IMG/VR virus record: IMGVR_UViG_3300042371_000255
Location: 1-32,162 of that record
Direction: 5' to 3' (one strand)
DNA length: 32,162 bases
From: a virus
How positions within the stretch are numbered: the first letter of the stretch is position 1; every line of letters starts with the position of its first letter. The position numbers were made by a program, and so were the translations under genes. The notes beneath the pieces are model-generated. The model had not been told where the DNA came from. It saw nothing but the letters and a program-made list of their open reading frames with translations, and searched no databases. Positions 2,924 to 23,423 of the stretch are shown piece by piece.

Positions 2924-4870
2924 ATGCCATTATCCAAACTTGTATTTAAACCAGGGATTAACAAAGACCAGACTAACTACGCCTCTGAGGGTGGTTGGGC
3001 GGATATGGATAAGGTTCGCTTTCGTTCAGGCTACCCTGAAAAGATTGGCGGTTGGTTAGTGCAGACGTTCCAACAATATGCTGGCGAAGCACGGCTATTA
3101 TTTCCTTGGGGTTTAACTACCGGCGCGTCAATATTATGTATAGGCACAAACGAAAAAATATACGTCACGCTAGGCACTACGCTATATGATATTACCCCGA
3201 TCCGTGAGACCTTCACAACCTCTACAACTCCATCAACTGACAATTGCTTTGGTACAACTAACGGCTCTACTACAATATTAGTTACACTTGCGGGTCACGG
3301 CGCTGACGAAGGCGCGTATGTTACGTTTAGTGGCGCAGCTGATGTGGGTGGAGTGCTAGCCGCAGAATTAAACCTAGAGTTTAAGATTAGCAATGTTACA
3401 ACAAATACTTTTGAAATTACGGTAGCCACTGCAGCAACGTCAACAGTAGCAGCGGGCGGCGGCACTGCCATAACAGCAGCGTTCCAAATCAATATTGGTT
3501 ACTCAATGGTCACTGCTGGTTATGGTTGGGGTACGGGAACTTGGGGTCGCGGTACTTGGGGGTCAAGCTCAACAGTACCTGTATTTAACGATGCCCGACT
3601 ATATTCTGCGGACAATTTTAATGACGATTTGATAATTAGCGTATCCAATGGAGACGTATACTATTGGGCATATGACTCTAACTTTAATACCCGTGCAGTT
3701 TTAATGTCGTCACTAGGCGGAGCAGTTGCAGTACCACAACAAGTAGGCACCCTAATATTTGCACCATCAGGGCATTTAATTGCGCTTAGCTGTACGGAAT
3801 ACGATGCTGGTGCCGCTTCTCCTGATTACTTAGGCGCTCTTAACCAGTTATTAATTCGATGGGCAAATGTATCTCCGGATACTGGACCAGACCCAACAAA
3901 TTGGAAACCAGAGTTAACTAATACTGCTGGATTTTTGTACTTGCAATCTGGGACAAGTATTATTACTGCATTCCACGCTAAACAAGAAACGCTAGTTTGG
4001 ACAGATATCTCGCTATCATCAATGCAATTCTTAGGCACTGCAGAGGTATTTGGCGTTCAAGAAGTCGCTAATGGTATATCAATTATAGGTGGCAATGCTA
4101 TTGCTTCGGCTAACAACGTTATCTATTGGATGGGCAACGATAAGTTCTATACCTATAACGGACGGGTTGATACGCTACCTTGCACTATAAGACAGTTTGT
4201 ATTTGAGAATATTAACCGCCAACAAGGGCAGATATTCTTTGCGGGTACTAATAATCAGTTTAATGAGATTATATGGTTTTATTGCACGGCTAACGCAGTC
4301 GAAATTGACAGGTACGTTATATATAACTATGCAGACAACATTTGGTACTATGGCAATATTAATCGAACCGCTTGGGTTGATGCTGGTGTGTTTAATTTCC
4401 CCCTTGCCGCACATGATGGCTGGGTCTACACACATGAATCAGGTAATAACGACGGGCAACCGCTAGGTGCACCCCCTGTAGGCATGGACTCGTTTATTCA
4501 ATCGGCTGACGTTGATATTGAAGACGGTGATAAGTTTATGTTAGTTCGTCGGGTTATTCCAGATATTAACTTTACAAGCTCAGAAACTACTAACCCAGTA
4601 ACTGGCGCACCTATAACCCCTGAAGCCACTGTTACTGTTGGGGTACGGAACTTCCCTGGAGCTGCAAGTTCAGACATAAACGCATCGGGTGTAGCAACTG
4701 ATAGGCCGATTATCACCACCACCGCTACGGTTAACCAATATACAAACCAAGTATTTATTAGGGCTCGTGGTCGTCAGATGAACTTTAGGATTGAGTCTAG
4801 TGGCGTTGGTACGCAGTGGCAGTTGGGTATGCCTAGAGTTGATGCACGCCCAGATGGGACAAGGGGATAA
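2924..4870 (+). CDS. Virion protein, tail/DNA-stabilisation (P22 gp10-like) candidate
   Basis: The 648-residue product has no signal or membrane segments and is rich in beta-forming Thr, Val, Asn and Gly, as expected for a structural protein. Its N-terminus (FKPGINKDQTNY, then G-G-W, K-V-R-F-R-S-G and E-K-I-G-G-W) is the signature of a podovirus virion family that I associate with P22 gp10-like packaged-DNA stabilisation or tail-hub proteins. Residues about 195-212 form a Gly/Trp repeat (GYGWGTGTWGRGTWG), also typical of that family as I recall it. A Thr/Ala-rich insertion at about 95-190 looks like an Ig-like or decoration domain. It starts 2 nt after the endolysin stop. Virion role fairly sure, exact assignment not. 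Confidence 0.7.
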   Translation: MPLSKLVFKPGINKDQTNYASEGGWADMDKVRFRSGYPEKIGGWLVQTFQQYAGEARLLFPWGLTTGASILCIGTNEKIYVTLGTTLYDITPIRETFTTSTTPSTDNCFGTTNGSTTILVTLAGHGADEGAYVTFSGAADVGGVLAAELNLEFKISNVTTNTFEITVATAATSTVAAGGGTAITAAFQINIGYSMVTAGYGWGTGTWGRGTWGSSSTVPVFNDARLYSADNFNDDLIISVSNGDVYYWAYDSNFNTRAVLMSSLGGAVAVPQQVGTLIFAPSGHLIALSCTEYDAGAASPDYLGALNQLLIRWANVSPDTGPDPTNWKPELTNTAGFLYLQSGTSIITAFHAKQETLVWTDISLSSMQFLGTAEVFGVQEVANGISIIGGNAIASANNVIYWMGNDKFYTYNGRVDTLPCTIRQFVFENINRQQGQIFFAGTNNQFNEIIWFYCTANAVEIDRYVIYNYADNIWYYGNINRTAWVDAGVFNFPLAAHDGWVYTHESGNNDGQPLGAPPVGMDSFIQSADVDIEDGDKFMLVRRVIPDINFTSSETTNPVTGAPITPEATVTVGVRNFPGAASSDINASGVATDRPIITTTATVNQYTNQVFIRARGRQMNFRIESSGVGTQWQLGMPRVDARPDGTRG

Positions 4871-7173: not shown

Positions 7174-7596
7174 ATGCAAGTATCTTTTGTACCTTTAGAA
7201 TACTTAGAAGTAGTATGGCCTCAAATTGAAGGTTATTTAGACGGAGCCGCTAGGTACTCGTATGGTAGGTTTAAAGTAGAAGATATTAAGCACGGCATTG
7301 AAACTAAGCCACAGCAGTTGTGGGTAGCATATGAAGATGAGTTTATTTACGGTGCAGTAGTAACAGAAGTTGTGGCGTACCCACAGATGAAAGCATTAGA
7401 TACCCATTTTACTGGTGGAATTGAGCTACCGAAATGGAAAACACCTATGTTAGAAGTATTGCAGAAGTTCGCAAAAGATAACGGGTGCAAAATTATTGAG
7501 AGCTACGGACGCCCAGGTTGGGAAAAAGTATTTACGGATGATGGATTTAAAAAGCGGTTCATGTTTTATGAATTGCCTGTGGAGAAAGAAGCATGA
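7174..7596 (+). CDS. GNAT-fold-like protein in the virion gene cluster
   Basis: The 140-residue product has the length and layout of a single GNAT-like domain. There is a central strand pair (LWVAYEDEFIYGAVVTEVV), an amphipathic helix (MLEVLQKFAKDNGC), a strand (KIIESYG), and a late R-P-G-W-E-K-V-F segment with D-G-F-K-K-R-F-M-F-Y-E-L, resembling the end of acetyltransferase folds. The classic Q/R-x-x-G-x-G/A acetyl-CoA loop is not clear, so enzyme activity is uncertain. Proteins of this type sit beside internal virion protein genes in T7-like phages (gp13 region), which fits the context. The stop overlaps the next ATG by 4 nt. Confidence 0.65.
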   Translation: MQVSFVPLEYLEVVWPQIEGYLDGAARYSYGRFKVEDIKHGIETKPQQLWVAYEDEFIYGAVVTEVVAYPQMKALDTHFTGGIELPKWKTPMLEVLQKFAKDNGCKIIESYGRPGWEKVFTDDGFKKRFMFYELPVEKEA

Positions 7597-8720
7597 GATA
7601 TAACCACCTAGAGATGTTGCCAGAAGAGGCATTCCAGAAAGTTGGTAAAACTATTAAGTTATACGGCAAGGGCGGCGGTGCACCAGCCCCTACTAACCAA
7701 ACGGTTACGCAAACTAACTTGCCTGAATACGCTCGTCCGTATTTTGAAAACTTATTAAATCGTACACAGGCACAATCATACCAAGGGTACCAACCATACG
7801 GGGCTGCTCGTGTAGCGGGCTTTACTCCTGAACAACAAGGTATTCAACAAAACTATTCTAACTTGAGCACACCAGGTCAGTTTGGTCAAGCAACTCAAGG
7901 TCTTAATGTAGCTGGTGGCATGGGTATGGCTGGTGCAGGTGCGGGTTTAAGTCAAGCTCTAGCATATCAACCTACCAACTATAATGCACAACAAGTAGGG
8001 ACTCAACAATTTGGTCAAGGCGCTGCGGATTACTATTCAAGCCCGTACCAACAAAACGTTACTAACATTGCCTTACGTGAAGCACAACAAAAAGGTGCCC
8101 TAGATAAAAACGCATTGATGAGTGGTGCTATTGGCCGTGGTACATTTGGTGGAGCTAGGAACGCGCTATTACAGGCAGAACAAAACCGGGGCTTAAATCA
8201 ACAACTTGGTGATATCCAAATGCAAGGTAGCCAACAAGGCTATTTAAATGCACAACAACAATTCAACGCAGACCAGGCTCGTGCACAACAAGCAGCACTA
8301 GCTAACCAACAAGCAGGCCTATCTGCAAACCAACAAAACGTACAAGGCCAACAATATGCGGCTGGTTTAGGGCAACAACTATACGGTACAGGTTTGAGTG
8401 GTATTCAGCAGGCTGCGACTGGCTTAGGTGCATTAGGTTCTACACAACAAGCATCTGATTTAGCTCGTCTAGGCGCACAACAAAGTTCAGCCGCACAACA
8501 ACAAGCATTGCAACAAACACAACTTGATACTGCATACCAAGACTTCTTACGTCAACGTGACTACCCACAAGAACAACTTGGCTTCTACAGTAACATTCTC
8601 CGTGGATTACCTGTACAATTGGCGTCTACTACTCAATCTTATCAAGCACCTCAAAGTATTGGTGCACAGATTGGCGGTTTAGGTTTAGCAGGCTTAGGCT
8701 TAGCTAACGCATTAAAATAA
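7593..8720 (+). CDS. Gln/Ala-rich virion or ejection protein
   Basis: The 375-residue product is very rich in Gln, Ala and Gly, with long helical stretches (QQQFNADQARAQQAALANQQ) and a conserved-looking end containing Y-Q-D-F-L-R-Q-R-D-Y-P-Q-E-Q-L-G-F-Y, then a Gly/Leu-rich hydrophobic C-terminus (IGGLGLAGLGLANAL). I recall that R-D-Y-P-Q-E-Q segment from marine podovirus virion proteins. Its start overlaps the previous stop (ATGA). The basic N-terminus ends in G-K-G-G-G. Together with its neighbours this points to an ejection or internal core protein able to cross membranes; no enzyme motif is seen. Confidence 0.7.
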   Translation: MRYNHLEMLPEEAFQKVGKTIKLYGKGGGAPAPTNQTVTQTNLPEYARPYFENLLNRTQAQSYQGYQPYGAARVAGFTPEQQGIQQNYSNLSTPGQFGQATQGLNVAGGMGMAGAGAGLSQALAYQPTNYNAQQVGTQQFGQGAADYYSSPYQQNVTNIALREAQQKGALDKNALMSGAIGRGTFGGARNALLQAEQNRGLNQQLGDIQMQGSQQGYLNAQQQFNADQARAQQAALANQQAGLSANQQNVQGQQYAAGLGQQLYGTGLSGIQQAATGLGALGSTQQASDLARLGAQQSSAAQQQALQQTQLDTAYQDFLRQRDYPQEQLGFYSNILRGLPVQLASTTQSYQAPQSIGAQIGGLGLAGLGLANALK

Positions 8721-8729
8721 GGATAAGAT

Positions 8730-10313
8730 ATGCAACAGAACATGCGCCCCATTACTAAACCGGACTTAAACAGTATTTTTGAATCTATGCTTGCTATCCC
8801 TGCAAATGTTAGGGCCCAGCATGTTAATGCTTATTTATTGACGGGTTCGCCTGAACAAAAACTAGCAGCGGCAATGATTAAAGATATGCCTCAAAGTCAA
8901 GCACCAGCTGCACCTGCTCAAGCTCCAACACAAACAGTTATAGACCAAAAATTAGCCCAAGTAGAACCAGGCATTGCTGCACTTCCAGTAGCCGAAGGTA
9001 TGTTTGATGGTGGCGCTTATGCAGGTGGTGGCATAATTGCATTTGACGATGGTGGTGATGTTCCTGGGTATGCAACTCAAGGTGAAGTAAAAGCAGCATC
9101 TCCAGTGGGTCGTTGGTGGGAAGGTAGACAAGCTGTTGGTGATGAGTACTTACTAGCTGAAAAATTACGTGCTGACCTCCAATCTAAATATGGTCCTAAA
9201 GCTGGGCTAGGTGGGTTATTCATGGAGCAATCTGACGTAGAACGTGAACAGGCACAGGCTATATCTGAAAGACTACCTAAAATGTCTCTATCAGAATTGC
9301 AATCATTAAGCCAATCTGGAACATTATCACCAGTTGCAGCAGCACCTGCACAAGCTAAACCAATAGCCGCAATGCCAGCAAGAGATAAAGTACAAGAAGC
9401 AGCTGATGCAGCCGCGCCAGTTACTAAGTCCCAATCATTCTCTTCTAAACTAGGGGATTTGGATTGGACTAACATAACGGACAATAGCTCTGAATATGAA
9501 AAGTTAAAACAAACAGTACGAACTCCTGAAGCACTAATCGCAGAGCGTGCAGGTTTAATCGGTATAGACCCTAACCGAGCCAGAAATGATGAACGGTTAA
9601 AAGCCATGGAAGAAAAAACAGGTAAGGCTGAGGAAGCTGCACCGTGGATGGCATTAGCACAATTTGGCTTGGGTATCGCTGGCGCTAGAAAAGGCCAAGA
9701 AGGCGAAGCTATTAGCAAGTCAGGTATTAATGCGCTACAAGGTCTTTCAGTAGCTAAAGATAAAGTAGAAGCTGCACGTGAAAAACAATTCGATTTATCT
9801 ACTCGTCAAGCACAAGCTGACCGTGCTGAAAAAGTAGCCGCTGCTGATTACGGTATACGTAGTAAAGAACACACAGAAGCACAAAACCGCGCTGCAGAAC
9901 TTGCTAAGATTGGATATAAAACTGACCTTGAAGTTAAAAATGCTACCGGCGCGTATGATGCTAAGAAAGCTAAAGTTGCAGCTCAATTAGATTTGAAAAA
10001 ACTAGACCAAGCAGCCGCACAACATTCACAAACAATTGCTATGTATGAAAAACGAATGAAATCTGCGGATGCGGCTACAGCAGCTAAACTAATAGCAGCT
10101 AAACAAACAGTCATGAAGAACATGCAATCAGACCCTGCATATACGGACGCATATCTTGCGCTTAAAAAGAAGTATAATAATGACGTAGGGAATGAAATGT
10201 TTAAAGGCGAGTTAGCACTCTTACGAAACGGTTACGTTGCTAATGCATTAGGTCAAGTTCTAGAAGCGGATGAGGGGATTAAAACTGCTGATTCTCTCTT
10301 GGCTGGGGACTAA
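8730..10313 (+). CDS. Coiled-coil virion or ejection protein with GGG...DDGG motif
   Basis: The 527-residue product has a short N-terminal helical domain, a Pro/Ala/Gln linker at about 55-70, then the motif A-G-G-G-I-I-A-F-D-D-G-G-D-V-P-G-Y near residue 92. This motif is a recurrent feature of phage virion proteins from aquatic samples, by memory. From about residue 280 it is a long charged helix-rich region with Ala/Lys/Gln/Glu heptads, probably coiled coil, with a hydrophobic Ala/Gly patch near 305-315. AAGGATAAG precedes the ATG. It directly precedes the 2102-residue protein, so the two are probably partners in the ejection apparatus. Confidence 0.7.
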   Translation: MQQNMRPITKPDLNSIFESMLAIPANVRAQHVNAYLLTGSPEQKLAAAMIKDMPQSQAPAAPAQAPTQTVIDQKLAQVEPGIAALPVAEGMFDGGAYAGGGIIAFDDGGDVPGYATQGEVKAASPVGRWWEGRQAVGDEYLLAEKLRADLQSKYGPKAGLGGLFMEQSDVEREQAQAISERLPKMSLSELQSLSQSGTLSPVAAAPAQAKPIAAMPARDKVQEAADAAAPVTKSQSFSSKLGDLDWTNITDNSSEYEKLKQTVRTPEALIAERAGLIGIDPNRARNDERLKAMEEKTGKAEEAAPWMALAQFGLGIAGARKGQEGEAISKSGINALQGLSVAKDKVEAAREKQFDLSTRQAQADRAEKVAAADYGIRSKEHTEAQNRAAELAKIGYKTDLEVKNATGAYDAKKAKVAAQLDLKKLDQAAAQHSQTIAMYEKRMKSADAATAAKLIAAKQTVMKNMQSDPAYTDAYLALKKKYNNDVGNEMFKGELALLRNGYVANALGQVLEADEGIKTADSLLAGD

Positions 10314-10331
10314 ACCATTTAAGGAATTGTT

Positions 10332-13300
10332 ATGATTGTTAATTTACCTAAGTTAGGCCCAGTCAAGTTTAGAGACGACCTAACGCAAGAGCAATTTCTA
10401 GCCCAAGTACAACAACTATCAGAAAAGCATGATTTTAAACTCCCAGGACCTGATTATGGTCTAATGGGCTCGTTTACTAAAGGTGTATCCCGCGGGGCAA
10501 CTCGTATGGGCGAAACCTTTGGAGATATCCTCCCTGCCCTAGGTGCAAGTGCATTGGGTTTTGATGACTATGCTAAAGCTCAAATGGCAGAAGCTAAAGC
10601 TACTGAAGAGCAACTAGCCCGAGAAAACCCCGCACAGTTTGAATCCTACAAGCAAGTTGAAGGCGTGGGCGACGCTGCTAGATACGCGCTAGAAACATTA
10701 GGGGAAGTAACTCCTGATATGGCAAGTATGTTGGTCCCCGGCGGTATTGGTGGAGCAGTAGCTAAACGAGGTGCCGCTAAACTTGCAGAAAAAGAATTAG
10801 CAGGTATAACTCCGGGACTTGTAGAGACAGGTGCCTCTGCTGAAGAATTAGCGCATGTTGCTGGTCGTGTCGGTGCAGAGAATGCTGCGAGGCAGCAGGC
10901 TAAAGGTCAAGGGGTTGGTGTATACCTCGGTTCATTTGCAATGAACACCCCTGAAGTATTTCAAAGTATCTATCAAGACTCCGGACAATTAGCTCCCGGC
11001 GCGTCATTATTATTCGGGTCAGTTAGTGCTGCACTAGATTCTGTTCTGCCTGCCACAGTATTGAGGTCACTATCCCCCGCAGGTAAAGCGGCTATCACTG
11101 GCAAAATATTAGAGCAGTCTGGCATGCGTCCGGGCTTAGCCAAAAACATTACCAAGTCAGCGCTTTCAAGTCTAGGTACCGAAGGTCTAACTGAAGGTGC
11201 TCAAGAAGCACTAAATATTGCGGCCGAAGGGTTTGTAAATGAAAACCGTGATATGTGGACTGATAAAGACTTTAACCGTATCGTTGAGAGTTCAGTTCGT
11301 GGTGCTATTGCGGGTACTCCGTTTGGTGCTATCCAAGGTGCAGCTAAAAATGCGCAAGAGAAAGCCGTAGAACAACAAGGTATTGCTAGAGAAGAAGCAG
11401 CTAGACAACAACAAATAGATGTAGCAATGGCAGAACGTCAACGTCAAGCTGACATGGTAACTCAAGCACAACAAGCACAAGAGCAAGCAGCCGCACAAGC
11501 AGCACAACGTTCTCAAGCAAATCTACCTATGGACTTACCGGGTATGGAACCGGTTGCGGGTTTTACTCAAGGTGAAGTTGGCCCTGCTATGCCTACGGAA
11601 GAAACTGCACAAGCGGAACAAGTTGCTGCAGGGCAAGAGTCTTTATTTGGCGCAACAGGTAAACCAACTCCTGAAGCACTTTCATCTGTGAAGATGGCGG
11701 CGCAACAACAAAAACAAGCGGAAGCGCAAGCTAAAGTAGACCAAAAGCAAGCACTAGCGGAGTTAGCTCCTAAACAATTTGACATCATGCAGAACGTTCG
11801 CATGAAAGAAAGCAACTTATCGCCTACATCTCCGCTACAACAACTAATAGCACAAGCTTCTGACTTCGGCCCTAAAGTAAAAGCAAAACAAATAGAAGCT
11901 GCACGTACCGAGCCTACTTCAGTTACATCCGACCAAACATGGAAAGACCTAGGTGTTGGCCCTACAGCTATATTGCGCAAAGAAGGCGCTTTAAACAACT
12001 TAGATATTACCAAACAGGAAGATGTTGATAGATTACATGCGGGCCTTGATATCTACTTAGCCCAATCTAGGTTGAGCCCTAAGTTACAGGAAAGCGTAAC
12101 TAAATTTAAAGCCGCGTTGCCTCCTGCAATAGTAAAAGAAACCGCCCCAGTTGTAGCCGAAAAAGCTACGACCGAAGCCCCTTTAGAAACACTTCAAGCA
12201 AAAGAAGCACTACAGGCAGAACCTATTGAAGAGACATGGGATAATTTTGATACCGGCGTAGCGTTCCAAGACATGCCTAAATACTTGCAAGAAGAAGTAG
12301 TGTCTTTACATGGCAAAAACAAATTGACTCAAGAAGAAGCTGACTTCTATGCAAGCGAAGCTAAACGTAACGAGCCTGAAGACATAGTTGAAGAAGCACC
12401 GGTAGAAGAAGCTGTAGCTGAAGAAGCGCCAATTAGTAAAAAAGAAGCCGAGGCTAAAGTTGCAGGAAATAATTTAGATGACGCAATGGAAAAGTTTGAA
12501 ACACTTCTAAAAGATGAGTCTGCTACCCCAAAACAAATTAAAGCCGCAGATGATAAAGTAACCGCTGCTAGAAAAATATACAATAAAGCAACGTATTTAG
12601 ATGAATCTGAACCGGCAGTAGAACCAGCACCCGCGCCAAAAGCGGCTAAGAAACCCAAAGCTAAAGCTAAGAAAGTAACTCAGGCCGAAGTAAATAACTC
12701 TACAGATATGGTCGAGGCAGTGCATGCTGCAGTAGAGGCCGAACTTACTCCGGAAGAACTATCTAGGGTTAACGAACACTATGGCACTACGGATTCTAAT
12801 GTTGCCCTAGATAAGTTTACTGAAGACTTTACTGACTGGGTATTCGCAGGCGCAAAGAACGCGCAGCATAAATTAGCTGACCTATTTAATAAAGTATGGC
12901 TATCTGTTAAACACGGCATGTTGTCCGTGGCGATGTTGGTGAATCTCAATCCTGCCAATACTCAAATACATACTGTAAATATACCGGTAACAACCTATAC
13001 AATAAAACAAACAGTTGAGCGTCCGAAGGTAGACTTTAAAAACGTAGCTGTTCCTGGCTATATTCAACAAGTCGCCGATAACCGCATGAGGGCTAACCCA
13101 AATAAACCTATTGCAATTGTAGATAAGCAAATGGGGTTGACCTATGTGATTGATGCAAACGGCGTACTAGCTGGTAAATCTGCGTCTCTTACAGGTAAAA
13201 CTAAAGGGGATGTTAGGTCCGAAGCAGCTAAAAAGACAGCGAACGTAGAGTCAATAGCAGAAAAAGATAAAGTTACTGAAGCAGGGATGTTTGATGCGAG

Positions 13301-16300
13301 TGTAAAAAATGTTCCTCACTACGGTAATGTTATTACACTGCAAATATTTGATAACTACTCTATCGCCATGCATCCAACCTATTTAGGTGCACCAGCTGAG
13401 CAACGCCAAGCACGTTTAGAATCTGCTACTCCTGAAGATAACCGCATCTCTTTTGGCTGTATCAATGTGCCTAACGAGTTTATGCAAAACGTAGTATTTA
13501 AAGTTATCCCTAAAGGGGTAAAAAGCTTTCCTATAGTTGTAATACCAGAGTCAAAATCAATTCAAGAGTTCTTCCCAACAGAAGACTTCGCAAGCTCTGA
13601 AACTAAGTATATAACTAAAACTGCACAAGGTACTGCCGCAAGCACGCCCGATAAAACAACCCCTAAAATGGCTGCTACTCGTGAAGAGCTAACTAGAGAA
13701 CAAGCTGCTGCTAACTTAGGTGCTGCCTTATCTGCTATATTTGAAACTAAATTTAATATCGTTCCAGGTGAAACTCCGCCTGACATATTAAAAGCAATCA
13801 CTCAAATGATTGAAGTACTTATCCGTGATGGCGCACGTTCTCTTGGTGAAACAGTAGCTGCTATTCGTAAGGACTTAGGCGAAGCCGCATTCCGTAGAGT
13901 AAACAAAAAAGATATTGCTCGCATATACAGAGAGAAATCTAAAGAGCGGGAAAAAACTAGGAAGACTGCTAACGTTAAACAAAAAGCCCAAGAAGCTTCA
14001 AGTGAGATTGGAATTGCAGATACTGTACTAGATAACTTACCTGAGCCAAAACCAGCAATAATAGAAGGTGCCTTAAATGCGGTATCAACCGTACCAGACT
14101 CGCTCAGGAAGGGCGCTTTAGGGTTTATGAGCCTACCTAACCTAGTCGAAGTTTTTGGCAAAACTTTCCCTACATTAAAAAATCTTTTGACAGCGGTTGA
14201 ATACCGTGGTGCTCGTAGTATTGAGTATCGTGAGCAAGTTTCTAGAATTGTTAATAAAGGGTCTAAGCTTATTAAGGCAATGACACCTGCACAGGTGAAG
14301 CATTTTAACGACCTTATACTAGATATCTCTCGTCTTAAACTTGACCCACGCCCTAAAGCATTGGAAAAAGACCCTACCTTAGTTAATAATCCTTTAATTA
14401 AACAGTTCAAAGCTTTACCACAAGCACTACAAGACTACGCAATAGAGCTTGCTGACCAATACGAAGCATACGGCAATAAGTATTTAGATTTACTAATCAA
14501 TCAAATCCCTCAGCAAAACAACAGGGAGTATTTGACTTTAGTAGAGAAGATGAAGGCTAAGTTTGAAGCTGGCCGCATACCATTCTATTTGCCATTGCTA
14601 CGTTCCGGGGAATACTGGGTTTCGTTTACTGATACTAATGGAGAACGTGTAGTATTTGCTAGAGAGTCTAAACGACAACTAGACGAGGTAGTAAGCGCCA
14701 TCGAAAAAGCTGGTGGGACTAATATTCAAAGATATACCCAGATAGCGCAAATTACTCACCGTTCTGCACCACCTACCGGATTTATGGCGGGTGTTATTTC
14801 AGACCTACAAAAAGCTAAAGTAAACGATGAAGTAATCAACGACATCTATAGGTCTTACCTAGACTTGTTCCCAGCTGAATCCTTGAAGCAACAGTTCCAA
14901 ACCCGTAAAGGGGATAAAGGGTACACATCAGATGTAGTTCAGGGCTTTGCTGCAGTTGGTAGTCGTATGGCGCATCAACTTGCTAACATGGAGTATGCAC
15001 CTGATATTGGGAATGCTATTAAAGGCGTCAAGTCAGTATACGAAGCTAACCCTTCAATGGCTAACCGTGACATATACGATAACATTGCATCTCAAGAACA
15101 GTTCCTAAGCAACCCAACTGCGGCACCTTGGGCATCTAGGCTTTCTTACTTCAGCTACCTATCTTACATTACAGGTAACGTTTCTTCTGCAGTTATCAAC
15201 TTAACTCAGTTACCCATCGTTGTTTACAGCTTACTAGGTGGTAAGTATGGGTTTGGGGAAGCCGCTAGTGCAATGTCTAGAGCTACTAAGATGTACTTTG
15301 CTGGCGGCCTAGATAACAACTCCGAGTTTATGCCTGACCGCACTTTTGGTACTAATGCCAAAGGAGAATACGCAGACTTATATAAAGTGGCCGTAGACCG
15401 TTCTGCTATACGTCGTGGTGTTGGCTATGAAATGACTGAAATGCGTAAGGTAAGCACTGAAGACTATACCGGCATTCGTTCTAAGGTTGAGCATGGCCTT
15501 GGGTTCTTGTTCCAAAACTCAGAGCGCTTTAACCGTGAAGTAACATTAATTGCCACCTTTGACCTAGCTAGAAAATCAGGCATGTCTAAAGAAGAAGCAA
15601 TTGAAGAAGCTATCCGTGTAAACACATCTGCACATAGCCATGCGCTAACTGATGCAGGTCCTAGGTTCTTCCAACAAGGCTGGGGTAAAGTTATGTTTAC
15701 CTTCAAACGCTTTGCTCAGGCACAAATTTATTTAGTAGGTCGCTTAGCTCAACAAGCATACGCAGGTGAATCTAAAGAAGTTAGGGATATTGCACGTAAA
15801 CAACTTACCGGTATCTTTGGCATGGCCTACTTATTCGCTGGTGTTCAAGGCATGCCTCTATATGGCGGCGCTACTTTAGTAGCATCTACGTTAAATGCGG
15901 CTTTGGGTGATGATGACGAACCGTTTGATGCAGATGAATCTGTGCGTACTGCCATTGGTGATTTAGGTTACAAAGGTCCGCTCAATCAGTTGCTCAACAT
16001 CGACATCGCTTCTCGTACTGGTTTCAATGGTATGTTGTGGCGTGACGATAAAAAACGTTTGGCAGATGTTGGTCCACTTATCTACGCTATCGAACACATG
16101 ATGGGCCCAGCTTATTCCGCCTTAGTTACGAACCCATCTCGTGCACTTGACGAGCTACAAAAAGGCCACAACGAACGAGCCATTGAAGCGGTAATGCCAT
16201 CCTTTATTCGTAACGGTATGAAGGGTATTCGCTATGCAACTGAAGGCGCACTCAACTCTAAAGGCGCTCCGATTGTAGAGGATATCAACGCATATAACCT

Positions 16301-16640
16301 AGCAATGCAAATACTTGGGTTTACCCCCGCTACTCTTAGTGAAGCGTATGCTCGTGCTGGGTCTATGAAACAGGCTGAAAAATATATCGGAGAAAGAAGG
16401 GGTGCGTTACTAGATAACTTATACCTCGCACGTACTACCGGAGATACGGATGGTATGATGGATATAAATGAAAAAATAGCTAACTTCAACTCAATCCACC
16501 CTGAACCTGGAATTAAAATTTCACAAGATACTATCAATAAATCGTACACTGCACGTGAGAATGCACTTAAAGATACGGTAGATGGCGTTCGTTTAAATCC
16601 AAAAATGAGACCATACTTAGTAGAAAACTTTGGTTCATAA
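10332..16640 (+). CDS. Giant ejection-type virion protein with internal L,D-transpeptidase-like domain
   Basis: The 2102-residue product is the largest gene here. The N-terminus (about 1-40) is a small domain (IVNLPKLGPVKFRDDLTQEQ). Residues about 45-320 hold Gly/Ala-rich hydrophobic helices of the kind found in giant phage ejection proteins. Residues 337-396 are Gln/Ala coiled coil, and about 655-785 are Glu/Ala then Pro/Lys/Ala linkers. Residues about 922-1080 resemble a YkuD-type L,D-transpeptidase: an I-A-I-V-D-K strand opening, H1014 in A-M-H-P-T-Y-L-G, then D-N-R-I-S-F-G-C-I-N-V-P with C1043 as candidate nucleophile. The C-terminal half is long and helical, with N-L-T-Q-L-P near 1620 and a hydrophobic stretch at about 1825-1858, recalling large PLxRFG-type polyvalent proteins. 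AAGGAA precedes the ATG. Confidence 0.8.
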   Translation: MIVNLPKLGPVKFRDDLTQEQFLAQVQQLSEKHDFKLPGPDYGLMGSFTKGVSRGATRMGETFGDILPALGASALGFDDYAKAQMAEAKATEEQLARENPAQFESYKQVEGVGDAARYALETLGEVTPDMASMLVPGGIGGAVAKRGAAKLAEKELAGITPGLVETGASAEELAHVAGRVGAENAARQQAKGQGVGVYLGSFAMNTPEVFQSIYQDSGQLAPGASLLFGSVSAALDSVLPATVLRSLSPAGKAAITGKILEQSGMRPGLAKNITKSALSSLGTEGLTEGAQEALNIAAEGFVNENRDMWTDKDFNRIVESSVRGAIAGTPFGAIQGAAKNAQEKAVEQQGIAREEAARQQQIDVAMAERQRQADMVTQAQQAQEQAAAQAAQRSQANLPMDLPGMEPVAGFTQGEVGPAMPTEETAQAEQVAAGQESLFGATGKPTPEALSSVKMAAQQQKQAEAQAKVDQKQALAELAPKQFDIMQNVRMKESNLSPTSPLQQLIAQASDFGPKVKAKQIEAARTEPTSVTSDQTWKDLGVGPTAILRKEGALNNLDITKQEDVDRLHAGLDIYLAQSRLSPKLQESVTKFKAALPPAIVKETAPVVAEKATTEAPLETLQAKEALQAEPIEETWDNFDTGVAFQDMPKYLQEEVVSLHGKNKLTQEEADFYASEAKRNEPEDIVEEAPVEEAVAEEAPISKKEAEAKVAGNNLDDAMEKFETLLKDESATPKQIKAADDKVTAARKIYNKATYLDESEPAVEPAPAPKAAKKPKAKAKKVTQAEVNNSTDMVEAVHAAVEAELTPEELSRVNEHYGTTDSNVALDKFTEDFTDWVFAGAKNAQHKLADLFNKVWLSVKHGMLSVAMLVNLNPANTQIHTVNIPVTTYTIKQTVERPKVDFKNVAVPGYIQQVADNRMRANPNKPIAIVDKQMGLTYVIDANGVLAGKSASLTGKTKGDVRSEAAKKTANVESIAEKDKVTEAGMFDASVKNVPHYGNVITLQIFDNYSIAMHPTYLGAPAEQRQARLESATPEDNRISFGCINVPNEFMQNVVFKVIPKGVKSFPIVVIPESKSIQEFFPTEDFASSETKYITKTAQGTAASTPDKTTPKMAATREELTREQAAANLGAALSAIFETKFNIVPGETPPDILKAITQMIEVLIRDGARSLGETVAAIRKDLGEAAFRRVNKKDIARIYREKSKEREKTRKTANVKQKAQEASSEIGIADTVLDNLPEPKPAIIEGALNAVSTVPDSLRKGALGFMSLPNLVEVFGKTFPTLKNLLTAVEYRGARSIEYREQVSRIVNKGSKLIKAMTPAQVKHFNDLILDISRLKLDPRPKALEKDPTLVNNPLIKQFKALPQALQDYAIELADQYEAYGNKYLDLLINQIPQQNNREYLTLVEKMKAKFEAGRIPFYLPLLRSGEYWVSFTDTNGERVVFARESKRQLDEVVSAIEKAGGTNIQRYTQIAQITHRSAPPTGFMAGVISDLQKAKVNDEVINDIYRSYLDLFPAESLKQQFQTRKGDKGYTSDVVQGFAAVGSRMAHQLANMEYAPDIGNAIKGVKSVYEANPSMANRDIYDNIASQEQFLSNPTAAPWASRLSYFSYLSYITGNVSSAVINLTQLPIVVYSLLGGKYGFGEAASAMSRATKMYFAGGLDNNSEFMPDRTFGTNAKGEYADLYKVAVDRSAIRRGVGYEMTEMRKVSTEDYTGIRSKVEHGLGFLFQNSERFNREVTLIATFDLARKSGMSKEEAIEEAIRVNTSAHSHALTDAGPRFFQQGWGKVMFTFKRFAQAQIYLVGRLAQQAYAGESKEVRDIARKQLTGIFGMAYLFAGVQGMPLYGGATLVASTLNAALGDDDEPFDADESVRTAIGDLGYKGPLNQLLNIDIASRTGFNGMLWRDDKKRLADVGPLIYAIEHMMGPAYSALVTNPSRALDELQKGHNERAIEAVMPSFIRNGMKGIRYATEGALNSKGAPIVEDINAYNLAMQILGFTPATLSEAYARAGSMKQAEKYIGERRGALLDNLYLARTTGDTDGMMDINEKIANFNSIHPEPGIKISQDTINKSYTARENALKDTVDGVRLNPKMRPYLVENFGS

Positions 16641-16862: not shown

Positions 16863-19712
16863 TTAGACCACTGTATCTCTATCGGCAGACCCAGTACTGA
16901 TAGCATCTTCTAGCGCCTTTTCATCAAAGTTAGGAAGTTTAGTAGCATCGAAGTGAAGTACCGCAATGCCGTTCATTGCACTAAACGAAGTACCTGCACC
17001 CAATCGTTTCTTGTTCTCATCAGAGATTAATGCATTTGATTTCTTGTGTGGGCGTAGAGATTCGTCGAACCCAATTTGCAACTTCTGACAATATTGACGG
17101 TATGCCGCGGTTGACACATATAGTGCCTTGGTATCAGGCTCGTACCTAATAGACATAACCTTACCGCGTGGCTCACGTATAGCCTGTGAATCTAAGCTAG
17201 TGCGTTTGTCTTTAATACCGTTAGCGATAACCATTTCATCTAAGTGACTGTACAAGTAAGCTGATATGCTTTCTGCGGGGTCGGCAATAAATTTCTTAAC
17301 GCTTACACGTGACGCCTTGATGTGGTCAACAATAAAATGCATTACAGGTATATGGTCGATATCGTGTATGCCTAGGCGTCTTGAGATAATACCCGCGGTA
17401 ATTGCTACGGATGCCATCACTAACCAAAAACGTTCTGATGGTTGAGCGTCTGATAACTTCTCTATGCGCTGTTGCACTTGCTCCATCAAGTCCTTTACTC
17501 CCTCTAGGTTAGCTACAAGGTATTGAGCGAATGGACGAATAGCATGCCCGTAGTTGTCGTATAGTTTACCGAAGTGAGTACGTGACCATGTTGGGTCTGC
17601 ATCTTCATCCTTCTCAATATAGAACTCTAGTAAACGGTTTAGCTCACCATCAGGGATTGCTTTAAGTGATAGTAAGTCATCTACTAACGAACTGTTGCCG
17701 GTACTAATCAGTGCTGTTTCCCATGAAGTTGTATTCACTCGGATACCGCTTTCCTGTGCTTTTGCCTTGTGCTTAGCACGGCCTTGTGTTGCTTGATAAA
17801 CTACGTCTGACTTCTCAAGCGGAGGCATGTTAGTAATCTCATCAAACAATGCAGGTAGGTTATGCAGTGTACCCATGATTTGCATCTTGGAGTTTTGCGT
17901 ATCCTTAGCGTTAACAATCTGTGGTTTCGGATTACCATAGATACTTGCGATAGCGTGTAGGATTGTAGACTTACCTGAACCCGATGCGTTACTCATCAAG
18001 TGCAATACAAAACCTTCTACGTTAGTATGACGGACTAATAGTGAGCCAAACCCTAAGAAGAATGCAAATGCACGAGGCTCCATACCCGCCTTACCGTATA
18101 CATTAACTACTTCTTTCCACACATCAAAGCTACCTTTAATTTGGTACGTAGGTATGAACGCTAAGGTTTGTGTTGTTGGAGGGCTGTGCCTAATTTCTGT
18201 TGCTCGTATTTCATCACTCCCGATAATAATTGCGTCGTTTTCCGGAGTCCACCCGAACTGAGTACGGGCATGTTCTAATTCATTGGTTGTTTGCATTTGC
18301 TCAACCCATTTTGCTGCATATGACATAAGTAAATCCACCTGTTTTGGTAATACTGCCATCCCATGATGTGCAAGAGTATCTCGGAATTTATCCCTAGACA
18401 TAATAGATGCTAGGGGTGCCGCAAACTCTATAACACCATCTTTTGGCGAGTGTAGTTTAAAGACTATTGTGTGCCCCAGTTCGGGGTCCTTAATTCGTTG
18501 TGTTGCATAGAAGTCGTGGGTATAAACTAATACATCCGGCTCATCCTCATCGCCCTTCTTGTACACGCCACCTAACTTGCCCCTAACAAATGGGAATGGG
18601 TACGGCGGTATTGTGTACGTTACTTGCTCTTTTGTTTCTTTATCTGTTGTTACTACAACATTGTCCTCAGCGGTAGCTTCTATAACTGATGAATCTAGTT
18701 TTAATGGTGTCGAGATTTTATGTGGACATCCCTCGCACCCAATAGGGTTTAGCTGTTTAAAGGTATCGCAGTAATGGGGTTTAGTATCTGCGGCTTTAGC
18801 TAACGCTGTTTCTCTGTTGTAGTCATGGTGTTTCTCAGAGATTTTAATGATTGCGAACTCTCTATCTACGCACTTATCTGCAATAGATAACCCTGCTCGC
18901 CATAAATCGTAACTAATAGTTTCTTGATTTTCGTATATGTATTTTAGTTGGTTACATCCCTCTCCCTTCATGCTCTTCTGCATGATGCGTTTAAACGAGT
19001 GCTCCATGTTACCCATTGCTCGTTTAGTAGTTTCGTCTAACGCACCGTAGTTTAATCGTTTACCTGCAATAGCAAGACCGCCGCTATCCGATGGGAATAG
19101 TTCTTTAAATACGCTGAACGGACTAACTACACCGTCTGTAACAATCGATACAGGTAGTGGGTTGTTCGGGTCTTTCAAATGCATAGTTCCCGGGATGCGC
19201 AATACCCTCGCACCATCTGCAGGTACACTTAAATCAATATCAAACTTATGCGCGATACATGATTTCTTAAATGCTTCTGCGTGTGGTATCCAGTCGTTAT
19301 ACGACACAGCTTCTGTAAACGGCCAGTATGCATGTAGTCCGCGGCCTGATGAAACCACCGTAGGTTTGGGCATACCAACTTGCTTGCAGTACTGGCGTAA
19401 TGCTTTCATACCATCCACAGCATTGGCATAGGGCTTTCCTTCCCCACAATCAATGTCTAGGTAGTAAGACTTTAGTTCGTTTATATTGGCAACAATACGG
19501 GATTTGGTTGTTTTAAAAGACGCCAATGCGAAGAACGCATCAAACCCTTTCTCTACAAACCCTGCTGACTTCTCCAACAACTCATCAATAGTTTCAATGC
19601 CTATTTGACGTACTGTGTTAGAGGCTTCCCCGTCCCCTTGCTTTATTCCAAACAGAAAGTATTTACCACCTGCGGGCAATACTGATTCTAAAAATTCCTT
19701 TGGAGTATTCAT
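16863..19712 (-). CDS. PrimPol-type primase fused to a DUF927-like helicase
   Basis: The 949-residue product would prime and unwind DNA at the phage fork. The N-terminal part has archaeo-eukaryotic primase features: D86-I-D88 after a beta strand, S-S-G-R-G-L-H127, and D160 then R-V-L-R-I-P-G-T-M-H178. A Cys cluster follows (C315, C326, C329, H331 in C-E-G-C-P-H), a likely zinc site. The C-terminal half has a Walker A motif N-A-S-G-S-G-K581-S-T, a Walker B-like L-F-D-E625 and N-T-T-S-W-E-T-A-L-I-S-T-G-N-S sensor region, as in DUF927/SF3-like ATPases. GAGGA lies 5 nt upstream of the ATG. It is the last gene of the leftward operon, preceded by an HTH gene and followed by the terminator. Confidence 0.85.
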   Translation of the reverse strand: MNTPKEFLESVLPAGGKYFLFGIKQGDGEASNTVRQIGIETIDELLEKSAGFVEKGFDAFFALASFKTTKSRIVANINELKSYYLDIDCGEGKPYANAVDGMKALRQYCKQVGMPKPTVVSSGRGLHAYWPFTEAVSYNDWIPHAEAFKKSCIAHKFDIDLSVPADGARVLRIPGTMHLKDPNNPLPVSIVTDGVVSPFSVFKELFPSDSGGLAIAGKRLNYGALDETTKRAMGNMEHSFKRIMQKSMKGEGCNQLKYIYENQETISYDLWRAGLSIADKCVDREFAIIKISEKHHDYNRETALAKAADTKPHYCDTFKQLNPIGCEGCPHKISTPLKLDSSVIEATAEDNVVVTTDKETKEQVTYTIPPYPFPFVRGKLGGVYKKGDEDEPDVLVYTHDFYATQRIKDPELGHTIVFKLHSPKDGVIEFAAPLASIMSRDKFRDTLAHHGMAVLPKQVDLLMSYAAKWVEQMQTTNELEHARTQFGWTPENDAIIIGSDEIRATEIRHSPPTTQTLAFIPTYQIKGSFDVWKEVVNVYGKAGMEPRAFAFFLGFGSLLVRHTNVEGFVLHLMSNASGSGKSTILHAIASIYGNPKPQIVNAKDTQNSKMQIMGTLHNLPALFDEITNMPPLEKSDVVYQATQGRAKHKAKAQESGIRVNTTSWETALISTGNSSLVDDLLSLKAIPDGELNRLLEFYIEKDEDADPTWSRTHFGKLYDNYGHAIRPFAQYLVANLEGVKDLMEQVQQRIEKLSDAQPSERFWLVMASVAITAGIISRRLGIHDIDHIPVMHFIVDHIKASRVSVKKFIADPAESISAYLYSHLDEMVIANGIKDKRTSLDSQAIREPRGKVMSIRYEPDTKALYVSTAAYRQYCQKLQIGFDESLRPHKKSNALISDENKKRLGAGTSFSAMNGIAVLHFDATKLPNFDEKALEDAISTGSADRDTVV

Positions 19713-19794
19713 ACCGTCCTCAACCGTTAAAATTATAGGGGCAAAGCACGACGGCAGTGCTCTTTTGGTGGCTAACCTAGCCCCCCATTACTTG
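19713..19794 (-). promoter_or_regulatory. Leader with possible -10 box and small dyad upstream of the primase
   Basis: On the minus strand TATAAT (19737-19732) lies 20 nt upstream of the primase ATG, and an inverted repeat AGCAC/GTGCT (19745-19749 with 19757-19761) sits just above it. No good -35 hexamer stands at 16-18 nt. The upstream neighbour encodes a small HTH protein that could bind here. A promoter is possible but weakly supported. Confidence 0.25.
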
Positions 19795-20043
19795 CTAACC
19801 TGCTACATGCAATTCATGAAGCAGAACATTAATCTTCTCATGGTGTCGTCTAGGGACGTTGCTTTCCCCTTTGAACCATGCGTAGACGGTAGTACGAGAT
19901 ACCCCAAAGTGCTTGGCTATTTTCATTACTGGAACATTTGACATAATACAGGCAAGGGCTAACTGCACCCCCACCATCGTATTATCTGCCGCGTTAACGT
20001 CGTCGATGAATCCCGTAGAATAGCCTCGTGTAGAAGCTACCAT
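19795..20043 (-). CDS. Small helix-turn-helix DNA-binding protein
   Basis: The 82-residue product contains one helix-turn-helix at about residues 38-60 (VMKIAKHFGVSRTTVYAWFK), in which G-V-S-R-T-T-V-Y is the turn and recognition helix, followed by a basic patch (P-R-R-H-H-E-K). It has no ligand or dimer domain. GAGGAG overlaps the stop of the SSB-like gene just before its ATG (2-nt gap), so the two are coupled. Candidate targets are the leader of the downstream primase gene or the 27.8 kb dyads. It could also be an accessory replication protein that marks an origin. Confidence 0.75.
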   Translation of the reverse strand: MVASTRGYSTGFIDDVNAADNTMVGVQLALACIMSNVPVMKIAKHFGVSRTTVYAWFKGESNVPRRHHEKINVLLHELHVAG

Positions 20044-20045
20044 GA

Positions 20046-20945
20046 TTACTCCTCATCATCCCAAGTGCTTAGGATAGAAGACATATCTGCTTTTGGTGCA
20101 GGTGCTGCTTCTTCTTTCTTAGCCTTGACTACGACTGGCTCGGACTCTGCTGCCTCAACTTTTGCTTCCGGTGCTGGTGCAGGGGCCGCTGTTGGTTTAG
20201 GGGCTGCGATAGCTGCTTGGGCCGCTTTTGGTGGAGCTACAGTCATCGTGACACAACGCTTAGCCGCTTCTGATTTGCCTTTCTCCATGGCATTCATGAA
20301 CGCGTCGTTATCTAGATAGCTGATAGGTTTGAAAGTAAGTTTCGGTGTATCTGCATTAATATCAAACTTCATTTCAGTAACCACTGCAGAGACAGGCACA
20401 CCTTGCGCACCTAAGTAACGGCCATACGCTTGTAAAGGCATACGACCATTATCTGCATCACCGAAGATTGAAGTAGCTGATAAGTCTAATTGATACACAT
20501 CGCCGCGTGGGTCATTCTCTAACAACACAGCAACACGTTGACGGTAACGGCAAGCACGTGAACCATTGGAACCGGAACCACCGACGTTTTGTTTGCAGTC
20601 CATACACTTCGTAGCTTGCGCATTGTTTGCTTTTGCATCAGGTGTTATGCCGTCAGCCGACCAACAATCAGGTGGGGTAGCTTCTTTACTAGGGTCATAT
20701 GCGCCTTCGTAGAATGTACGTGATATGTGCTCTGCCGCCGCAACGATGATTACGTTCATGGTATTTGATTCACTAGCCGCAACTTCTTTACCACCTGAAA
20801 TCATGCGGAATACACGACCACGGATAGATATACGATGATTGCTAGAACCCTCGCCGCCCATCAATGCTTTTGTAGTTGCATCTAGTTCGAACTTTTGTAA
20901 GTGAGCCGGTAAGGGCATGTTTGATAATGCTAAATCTGTAGACAT
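20046..20945 (-). CDS. Probable single-stranded-DNA-binding protein with zinc-like Cys set and acidic tail
   Basis: The 299-residue product has a beta-rich N-terminal domain (HRISIRGRVFRMI, then MNVIIVAAAEHISRTFY) with four cysteines at about 94, 114, 117 and 132, arranged like a zinc site. From about residue 238 it is an Ala/Pro/Lys linker. It ends in S-T-W-D-D-E-E, an acidic tip like the C-terminal tails of SSB proteins that recruit partners. Position between an HTH gene and a helper protein in the replication block supports an SSB role. It lacks a recognisable bacterial SSB OB signature, so the assignment rests on the tail and context. AGGAGATAC precedes the ATG. Confidence 0.6.
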   Translation of the reverse strand: MSTDLALSNMPLPAHLQKFELDATTKALMGGEGSSNHRISIRGRVFRMISGGKEVAASESNTMNVIIVAAAEHISRTFYEGAYDPSKEATPPDCWSADGITPDAKANNAQATKCMDCKQNVGGSGSNGSRACRYRQRVAVLLENDPRGDVYQLDLSATSIFGDADNGRMPLQAYGRYLGAQGVPVSAVVTEMKFDINADTPKLTFKPISYLDNDAFMNAMEKGKSEAAKRCVTMTVAPPKAAQAAIAAPKPTAAPAPAPEAKVEAAESEPVVVKAKKEEAAPAPKADMSSILSTWDDEE

Positions 20946-20954
20946 TTGTATCTC

Positions 20955-21356
20955 CTATTTTTTAGTAATAACTACTGCGTATCTGCTGTTTACGTTTAAC
21001 CCCGGTGGGTGCAGGTCGGGATAATCCTCTAGGAATTGAGTCATGTTTCCTTGGCTAACTCGCTTCTCTAATAAATCTAATGCATCGTGCTCTTTAATGA
21101 AGTTATGGAATGAATACCAATCGTTCGTGTCGTAGCGTTTGTAAATCCGCTTTGTAACCGTACCAAATTCCGTACGCATACTTTCAGCGCCCATCGTTTT
21201 AAGTATCTCTAGAAGCTCATTATTGATTACATCTAATTGGCTTTCTAAAGCTTTATCTTCCTCTTCATAAGCCGCAGAAATTGCTCTGCGTTTGTCCCTA
21301 ATTTTTACGTAAATCTTAACCAACTTCTTAGCTAAGTCTACTTTTTCTTCTGACAT
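20955..21356 (-). CDS. Conserved helical replication-block protein of unknown function
   Basis: The 133-residue product is mostly charged helix in its first half (KLVKIYVKIRDKRRAIS, then E-E-E-D-K-A-L-E), followed by a segment with T-E-F-G-T-V-T-K-R, D-W-Y-S-F-H-N-F-I, and an end reading P-P-G-L-N-V-N-S-R-Y-A-V-V-I. I recall that ending from phage proteins encoded beside recombination or SSB genes, but not a function. A perfect AAGGAGGT stands just before the ATG, the strongest ribosome binding site seen here, so high expression is likely. Confidence 0.7.
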   Translation of the reverse strand: MSEEKVDLAKKLVKIYVKIRDKRRAISAAYEEEDKALESQLDVINNELLEILKTMGAESMRTEFGTVTKRIYKRYDTNDWYSFHNFIKEHDALDLLEKRVSQGNMTQFLEDYPDLHPPGLNVNSRYAVVITKK

Positions 21357-21365
21357 AGTACCTCC

Positions 21366-21386
21366 TTATATCCAGTGAAATTCCAT
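21366..21386 (-). CDS. Possible six-codon leader ORF (MEFHWI)
   Basis: Between the helicase stop and the next gene, AAGGAG (21396-21391) is followed after 4 nt by ATG and six codons, M-E-F-H-W-I, then TAA. That stop overlaps the AAGGAGGT of the next gene. It may deliver ribosomes to, or attenuate, the downstream gene, or may be chance in a 53-nt gap. Confidence 0.25.
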   Translation of the reverse strand: MEFHWI

Positions 21387-21409
21387 CTTACTCCTTATGT
21401 TTAACAATG

Positions 21410-22957: not shown

Positions 22958-23172
22958 TAAATGCCCCCGTCGGCGATAGAGAATTGCACCATATCGATGT
23001 TTCGATTGGCGTTGTAAGTGACCCGTCTCGTGGGTCAGTCGATTAAATCGTAGCGCGGAGTCATACAATACGAAAGGTTTGCACTACTTCAATTGGTGTT
23101 GTTTGCCATGAACCGATTTATCGCGGCTCTCTAATCCCACTCACACCTAACGGACTAGAGACTTGTCGTAAT
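22958..23172 (-). other. Gap upstream of the SNF2 gene
   Basis: About 215 nt with no convincing gene. On the minus strand TTGAAG and TATTGT about 16 nt apart form a weak promoter-like pair near 23055-23085. I tested both strands for a tRNA T-loop and cloverleaf and found none. Confidence 0.35.
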
Positions 23173-23421
23173 TCATTTTTTTACTGTTTTCTTTTTATAG
23201 TTTCTTGCTCGATTCTTACTCGGCTCTTCTAAGTAGTAGCCATCTGAGTTTGAACCACCCTTGCTTAATGCTTTTACATGACTTACGTCTTTACCCGTGC
23301 GGTCAACCCCTTTTTTATCTAGGGCTCTACGTGCACGTTGGCGTTCCATGCGGTTAGGTAACTCGCCGCGTTTCTGTTGCAATTCATAGTCTTGCTTGTA
23401 ATCTCGTTTCTTTGTAGCCAT
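23173..23421 (-). CDS. Small basic HNH-like protein
   Basis: The 82-residue product is very basic. It contains G-K-D-V-S-H-V-K-A-L-S-K-G-G-S-N-S at about residues 43-59, then E-P-S-K-N-R, a pattern like the beta-beta-alpha core of HNH nucleases (D/H-V-x-H-...-G-G-x-N-...-N-R). It lacks the usual second zinc or metal residues and is short, so it may be a minimal DNA-binding or nicking protein. It starts after a clean GGAG, 2 nt downstream of the Cas4-like gene. Other phages have similar proteins, by memory, without a known role. Confidence 0.6.
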   Translation of the reverse strand: MATKKRDYKQDYELQQKRGELPNRMERQRARRALDKKGVDRTGKDVSHVKALSKGGSNSDGYYLEEPSKNRARNYKKKTVKK

Positions 23422-23423
23422 AG

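Follow-up and report, generated by a model that had tools for sequence, protein, structure and literature searches.

The window, i.e. the whole stretch of 32,162 nucleotides that was analysed from the virus record IMGVR_UViG_3300042371_000255, holds a giant open reading frame (ORF) of 2102 residues. The initial annotation had given its length and coordinates correctly, with residue 922 falling on base 13095. The genes and features of the locus are listed below, where LDT stands for L,D-transpeptidase.

2924..4870, + strand: virion structural protein, encoded in the gene block of the giant (phrog_3287, E 1e-58)
7593..8720, + strand: gene for a DNA ejection protein, two genes upstream of the giant (phrog_4287, E 6.6e-9)
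8730..10313, + strand: 527-residue ORF between the ejection protein gene and the giant (listed by position only)
10332..16640, + strand: giant 2102-residue ORF, read as a large ejection/polyvalent-type protein with an LDT domain (ORF reading, C-terminal profile matches)
12672..12911, + strand: helical module directly upstream of the domain, residues 781-860 (aligned across 18 giants; AlphaFold2 helices of moderate confidence)
12918..12956, + strand: short hydrophobic segment MLSVAMLVNLNPA resembling a signal peptide or anchor, residues 863-875 (position kept across 18 giants)
13011..13589, + strand: YkuD/L,D-transpeptidase-fold domain, residues about 894-1086, core 922-1080 (AlphaFold2, Foldseek, VIA, homology to bacterial LDTs)
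13371..13373, + strand: putative catalytic His1014 (invariant in four alignments, including one of 59 sequences)
13443..13445, + strand: Arg1038, five residues before the cysteine (E. coli LdtB, LdtC and LdtE also have Arg here, DpaA does not)
13458..13460, + strand: putative catalytic Cys1043 in DNRISFGCINVP (invariant in four alignments; in every giant inspected)
14583..16607, + strand: C-terminal PLxRFG / tail-700 / DarB-like region, residues 1418-2092 (NF032893, E 6.6e-132)

The giant lies within a late, virion gene block, as is characteristic of polyvalent and ejection proteins. Its C-terminus, in addition to NF032893, matches the DarB-like phrog_10089 (E 3.1e-82) in the PHROG search, and the polyvalent-associated domain LPD38 occurs in 7 of 14 LDT giants. 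An ejection gene of the phrog_4287 family directly precedes giants in four records, other LDT phages among them. The 527-residue ORF had no family match in profile searches including PHROG. The giant is probably packaged in the virion and ejected.

The LDT domain was modelled with AlphaFold2 at a pLDDT of 92.3 and a pTM of 0.89, and Foldseek ranks 1-30 against the PDB were all LDT/YkuD-family enzymes. VIA Z-scores of the model were 12.8 for Csd6, 12.6 for Ldtfm, and 11.7 for YkuD, with Pgp2 close, and were tied between hydrolases and transpeptidases. Csd6 and Pgp2, which are carboxypeptidases, fit the domain fold as well as the transpeptidases do. The motifs named from the letters alone were all present, i.e. 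IVDK at 929-932, TEAGMF at 982-987, His1014, and SFGC(1043)INV. The proposed extent of about 922-1080 held as the core of the domain, whereas its limits are slightly wider (about 894-1086). By fold and by the catalytic His and Cys, conserved in 59 aligned domains and in the giants, the domain belongs with the PF03734 family, and its LDT fold and homology are practically certain.

Profile searches recovered this relationship unevenly. The window copy alone had no LDT match in Pfam or NCBIfam, and a PHROG search of the window protein returned nothing named as an LDT, only phrog_38499, an uncharacterised family, at E 9.7e-6. In the suggested Pfam check against YkuD (PF03734), the window copy itself was not detected and 19 of 59 aligned relatives matched, the best at 2.1e-8. 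The resemblance is well outside chance expectation: a relative on a viral contig aligned with the window domain by blastp at E 8e-20, with 34% identity across 163 columns of the alignment. PDB sequence searches with the window domain or profiles gave no useful LDT match (NHL-repeat noise, and a 1zat motif at E 0.52), hhalign against two E. coli LDTs aligned the Cys motif alone at a probability of 2.9%, and tblastn of the window, L012, and L010 domains against annotated phages gave no match.

The published signature hGhHG(S/T)-X10-(S/T)XGChR(M/L) is matched in part by the window domain. While the (S)XGCh portion is present, Asn stands for Arg after the Cys, HP for HG, and the spacing between His and Cys is longer, with 29 residues compared to 16 in LdtB/C/E (about 16 in the textbook motif). 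An aromatic residue replaces the second His two positions before the Cys. These departures are common to 59 of 59 subfamily members, and because the full signature is absent, the domain is assigned to a divergent subfamily of the fold family rather than to the canonical LDTs. Since the subfamily departs from the textbook motif, we infer its activity rather than regard it as demonstrated.

The bacterial DNRIS[YFW]GCINV subgroup, which the initial annotation had named, does exist: at least 595 genome stretches matched the pattern and at least 562 of them were confirmed. Among bacteria, the nearest relatives are for the most part secreted LDTs with one domain and a length of about 230-350 residues, and the secreted bacterial genes show the same motif deviations as the phage domains. 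Integrated giants were sought in 399 genomes of the taxonomic order of genome G001, where only standalone LDTs were found.

Among phages, the same domain lies mid-chain in giants of 2,100-4,400 residues, which come from about 30 uncultured phages. It also occurs mid-chain in a 2318-residue protein of an E. coli phage-plasmid. The His and Cys are present in every giant inspected and in all 42 long viral ORFs of a second tally. Compared with a sister phage, the window has 27 synonymous and 0 nonsynonymous changes in the 193 codons of the LDT domain; the domain is under purifying selection, and in divergent giants it is the best conserved part. In the tree, 17 phage domains form one clade (100/99) against 42 standalone domains. 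The E. coli phage-plasmid giant exceeds the PF03734 cut-off (27.2 against 23.4 bits), its placement inside the phage clade is unsupported (SH-aLRT 19), and its LDT may be a separate capture. The phage-plasmid gene had no match at the DNA level in E. coli genomes. The central claim of a YkuD/LDT-fold domain inside a giant ejection-type protein is borne out by the fold and its homologues, by the conserved catalytic residues, by the signs of purifying selection, and by the neighbouring genes.

Upstream of the domain, the distance from the hydrophobic segment to the VDK strand is 67-76 residues in 17 of 18 giants. In the window, the segment is modest, exceeding 72% of the other blocks of the protein in hydrophobicity, and AlphaFold2 confidence is low at residues 863-875. 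Its phage-plasmid counterpart resembles a signal peptide: KALIRKIRNALAAALVGITLWNAQPVADVHA. A transmembrane helix was dropped as a statement of fact, and the segment is described only as signal- or anchor-like.

The giant is likely an ejection (polyvalent) protein of large size that has captured a secreted LDT and uses it on host peptidoglycan at entry. It would be the biggest of the ejection (polyvalent-type) proteins in a podovirus-like phage, with a complete YkuD-fold LDT and the signal-peptide-like segment captured from a secreted proteobacterial LDT. Once packaged, it would be expelled into the envelope, where the hydrophobic segment could help put the domain in the periplasm. His1014-activated Cys1043 would attack host tetrapeptide stems at their mDAP-D-Ala bond and would pass the acyl group to an amine acceptor, i.e. 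an adjacent mDAP, a D-amino acid, or an amine of a protein. Local re-linking of the wall might follow, or a tethering of the ejected protein at the entry channel. Resealing, anchoring, and action on host wall variants, as put forward in the initial annotation, are candidate functions. The domain has a high probability of being catalytically active on peptidoglycan, and transfer, rather than plain hydrolysis, is somewhat favoured as the main reaction. A tentative extension is that a podovirus-like lineage injects a peptidoglycan-linking enzyme within an ejection protein, which, rather than only cutting the wall, might covalently re-link it or, while the DNA enters, tether the phage's trans-envelope channel to the peptidoglycan of the host.

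The domain could also be mainly a hydrolase, i.e. an L,D-carboxypeptidase, an L,D-endopeptidase, or a DpaA-like amidase that eases passage by trimming stems or releasing proteins linked to the wall, a rather unlikely reading that amounts to an ejection-associated lysin on the YkuD fold. Csd6 as top VIA match with Pgp2 close behind is consistent with it, but the tied Z-scores do not separate the two activities. The giants of cultured relatives hold hydrolases: among 73 cultured phage records that have the giant's C-terminal region in common, SLT (Pavtok) or Hydrolase_2 and Peptidase_M15_3 (POI1126) are found instead of an LDT. LdtCd2, an L,D-carboxypeptidase/endopeptidase, and DpaA, an amidase that releases Lpp, are both YkuD-fold enzymes (PMC12729407), yet DpaA lacks the Arg five residues before the Cys, which the window domain has as do LdtB, LdtC, and LdtE (its equivalent is not strictly kept across the wider phage set). 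One phage-plasmid, moreover, has a separate GH104 gene adjoining the giant, and hydrolysis may therefore come from elsewhere.

An injected effector of later purpose, which would hold back competing phages or the growth of the host through D-amino-acid exchange or altered crosslinking instead of serving the entry channel, is improbable. It has a precedent in the T6SS effector Tlde1a, which is injected, has the LDT fold, and acts both as a carboxypeptidase and in D-amino-acid exchange (PMC9638812). Polyvalent proteins enter the cell by injection and combine several effectors (Iyer et al. 2017, PMC5512222), and SNF2, methylase, RadC, and InPase domains occur in the LDT giants of some phages. However, a single ejected set of molecules per virion would be few for whole-cell effects, and the ejection-gene neighbourhood and the replacement of SLT/hydrolase domains favour a role in entry. 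A catalytically dead or merely structural relic, e.g. a peptidoglycan-binding module, could explain the deviations from the canonical motif, but the His and Cys of every giant inspected, the 0 nonsynonymous against 27 synonymous changes, and the same deviations in secreted bacterial genes make it very improbable. A chance motif resemblance, to which the missing Pfam/NCBIfam match of the window copy might have pointed, was dropped on the fold, homology, and tree results, which leave it next to no probability. Against the favoured reading of a captured LDT stand the lack of a Pfam/NCBIfam match for the window copy, the motif departures, the modest hydrophobic segment, and the equally good fit of carboxypeptidases. 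In Tlde1a, moreover, changing the His two residues before the Cys reduced crosslinking and left D-amino-acid exchange (PMC9638812), and crosslinking by the window domain cannot be assumed for this reason.

As the arrangement is common to about 30 uncultured phages and an E. coli phage-plasmid, phages may remodel the wall at entry and not only cut it. To our knowledge, virion-associated wall enzymes cut peptidoglycan, as do those of the polyvalent-protein survey. The significance rests on a conserved, apparently active enzyme of a link-forming class within the probable ejection protein of about 30 phages, where it replaces the SLT/hydrolase domains of cultured relatives. If this is true, wall sealing, anchoring, or chemical marking at the entry site would be part of infection, and the old question of how the DNA-entry hole is kept small or repaired would become directly testable; the phage-plasmid homologue offers an enzyme from a well-studied host.

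Compared with known systems, B. subtilis YkuD, E. faecium Ldtfm, LdtMt2, and E. coli LdtB-E have the fold (Z about 11-12.6), the order of His then Cys, and the S-x-G-C motif in common with the window domain, and LdtB/C/E also the Arg at Cys minus 5. Canonical LDTs have GC-h-R, whereas the window domain has GC-I-N and an aromatic residue at Cys minus 2 and is embedded in a 2102-residue phage protein. Secreted proteobacterial LDTs with DNRIS[YFW]GCINVP belong to the same subfamily with the same motif and spacing (about 28-36% identity to the window domain by alignment), but as standalone proteins fall outside the separate clade of 17 phage domains. T7 gp16 is the largest of three ejection proteins and carries a wall-active (lytic transglycosylase) domain. 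The window locus resembles this arrangement in its three-gene order and differs in that no SLT was found in the 11 LDT-phage records searched.

Polyvalent proteins and DarB-like/PLxRFG giants (Pavtok, POI1126, Klebsiella phages) share the giant size, the homologous C-terminus, and the late-gene context, and some LDT giants have LPD38 and DNA-acting domains as polyvalent proteins do. The wall-active domains in the polyvalent-protein survey are lysozyme, SpoIID-like, or DD-peptidase, and the terms 'transpeptidase' and 'YkuD' are absent from it (PMC5512222). In a literature search of incomplete coverage, no title or abstract described an LDT in a phage ejection protein. Tlde1a likewise is an LDT-fold domain that a machine related to phage tails delivers into another cell (PMC9638812), while it is a small dedicated toxin outside any virion and is likened to the window domain at the level of fold class.

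Each motif named in the initial annotation, which had proposed a domain of the YkuD fold family (PF03734) of L,D-transpeptidases (LDTs) at residues about 922-1080, was found at the residue given within the 2102-aa ORF. The location of the domain held, while its extent was slightly wider. The features concerned are:

10332-16640, + strand, giant ORF of 2102 aa
13011-13589, + strand, LDT domain, residues about 894-1086
L113 (E. coli pSTEC648_2, CP061838.1) 8755-15711, LDT giant of 2318 aa, annotated only as hypothetical protein

At the domain position, the window protein had no match in Pfam or NCBIfam and a single one in PHROGs, the unannotated 117-aa family phrog_38499. This match covers 13317-13487 (residues 996-1052), the LDT catalytic core, and this PHROG of unknown function is probably an LDT-core family. 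Relatives were recovered by a DNA motif scan, and the domain was aligned with a small secreted-type protein on a viral contig (E 8e-20). In an alignment of 59 sequences drawn from these and from bacterial genomes, Asp38, Lys39, Thr89, Gly92, His121, Arg132, Arg135, the DNRI stretch, Gly149, Cys150, and Asn152 were invariant, with His1014, Cys1043, and Asn1045 of the window among these columns. PF03734 was matched by 19 of the 59 members (best 2.1e-8). The AlphaFold2 model built with this alignment reached a pLDDT of 92.3 and a pTM of 0.89, and its best 30 Foldseek matches in the PDB were LDT/YkuD-family proteins. VIA-align Z scores were 12.8, 12.6, 12.3, and 11.7 for Csd6, Ldtfm, M. smegmatis Ldt, and YkuD, respectively, over 110-148 residues. 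The proposed identity is thus borne out by the relatives and the predicted structure, and the modelled LDT/YkuD fold is considered secure.

The published LDT signature has (S/T)XGChR(M/L) at its end and places Cys about 16 residues after His (PMC12729407), a spacing also seen in E. coli LdtB, LdtC, and LdtE. In contrast to the canonical Arg and spacing, the 59 domains carry Asn after Cys, an aromatic residue (Tyr, Phe, or Trp) at Cys-2, and a spacing of 29 (30 in one). Known LDTs can do without a second His, since Cys-2 is Ser in both LdtE and LdtC. Secreted bacterial genes show the same departures, which are therefore subfamily traits and not signs of decay in the phage.

The sister virus IMGVR_UViG_3300037493_001368 is 88-93% identical to the 32-kb window record across their common gene block. 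Between the two, the LDT domain differed by 27 synonymous and 0 nonsynonymous changes over 193 codons, and it was also the most conserved stretch among 14 divergent giants. Residues 401-780 ahead of it (11532-12671) are fast-evolving, with 107 nonsynonymous and 86 synonymous differences. Along the giant gene (10332-16640), synonymous divergence dropped from about 0.55 (5' end) to 0.15 (3' end), which suggests recombination inside the gene.

In two viral scans and ORF tallies, about 30 distinct uncultured phages had the domain in the middle of a giant ORF (2,100-4,400 aa). The second tally counted 42 long ORFs, near-duplicates and contig-end fragments included, and His and Cys were kept in each. 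A library of predicted viral structures added two giants annotated as polyvalent-type or gp88-domain (TM 0.91 and 0.84). In bacteria, most of the relatives are short genes encoding a single domain, and the giant version occurred in 0 of 399 genomes of one bacterial genome's (G001) order. Several small genomes of that order (L129-L135 and related) hold a shorter LDT-like family of 143-160 aa ORFs, matching profile positions about 78-155 only. In the maximum-likelihood tree, a branch with support 100/99 set 17 phage domains on one side. Small standalone LDT genes on three viral contigs (L005, L015, L025) fell among the bacterial ones and may be morons or host DNA.

The pSTEC648_2 record (60 kb) is filed as a plasmid, but its terminase-like region, holin, lysozyme, GH104, and ParB make it look like a phage-plasmid. 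Its giant matched YkuD above the Pfam cut-off, plus LPD38, and the LDT in it may represent a separate capture. A short hydrophobic stretch precedes the domain in 18 giants, and in 17 of the 18 it lies 67-76 residues ahead of the VDK strand, at a position equivalent to the signal peptide of bacterial LDT genes; in pSTEC648_2 this segment (KALIRKIRNALAAALVGITLWNAQPVADVHA) is strongly signal-peptide-like. We infer that a secreted LDT was captured together with its export signal. Against this, the hydrophobicity of the window segment is no more than moderate, and AlphaFold2 modelled the segment with low confidence, behind a helical module.

In the established LDT reaction, Cys attacks the mDAP-D-Ala bond, with an amine as the acceptor of the transfer (PMC12729407). 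Ejection would bring the domain into the periplasm. Possible roles there are renewed linkage of stems around the channel, tethering of the ejected protein, D-amino-acid exchange, and hydrolysis. Both exchange and carboxypeptidase activity are within reach of an injected LDT-fold enzyme, as Tlde1a shows (PMC9638812). Transfer is favored over hydrolysis by only a modest lean, and the fold scores do not separate the two.

The C-terminal 700 residues of the window giant matched NF032893 (E 6.6e-132) and a DarB-like PHROG. The proposed LDT domain is confirmed, and the reading of the giant as a polyvalent/ejection protein with a putative LDT as wall-active module is supported as regards domain and carrier. 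A DNA-ejection family gene lay a short way upstream of the giant in 4 of 11 records; a search for SLT in 11 LDT-phage records found none. Elsewhere in the window, 16863-25915 (-) holds a replication block (PHROGs: primase/helicase-like, DNA helicase, exonuclease, DNA polymerase), and a 295-aa ORF at 30526-31413 (-) matched DUF3150 below threshold (E 3.3e-5).

The papers searched gave no description of an LDT within an ejection protein. The domain itself is already tagged, as UniProt labels at least one uncultured podovirus protein automatically as "L,D-TPase catalytic domain-containing protein". The window giant belongs to the class named polyvalent proteins, for which lysozyme, SpoIID-like transglycosylase, and DD-peptidase were reported as wall-active domains, in a paper that contains neither "transpeptidase" nor "YkuD" (PMC5512222). 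Giants of cultured phages carry the window-type C-terminus at about 24-30% identity (73 records). Among these, Erwinia phage Pavtok gp27 (5007 aa) has an SLT at 58-157, and Ochrobactrum phage POI1126 gp30 (4841 aa) has Hydrolase_2 and Peptidase_M15_3 near its N-terminus, followed by methylase and helicase.
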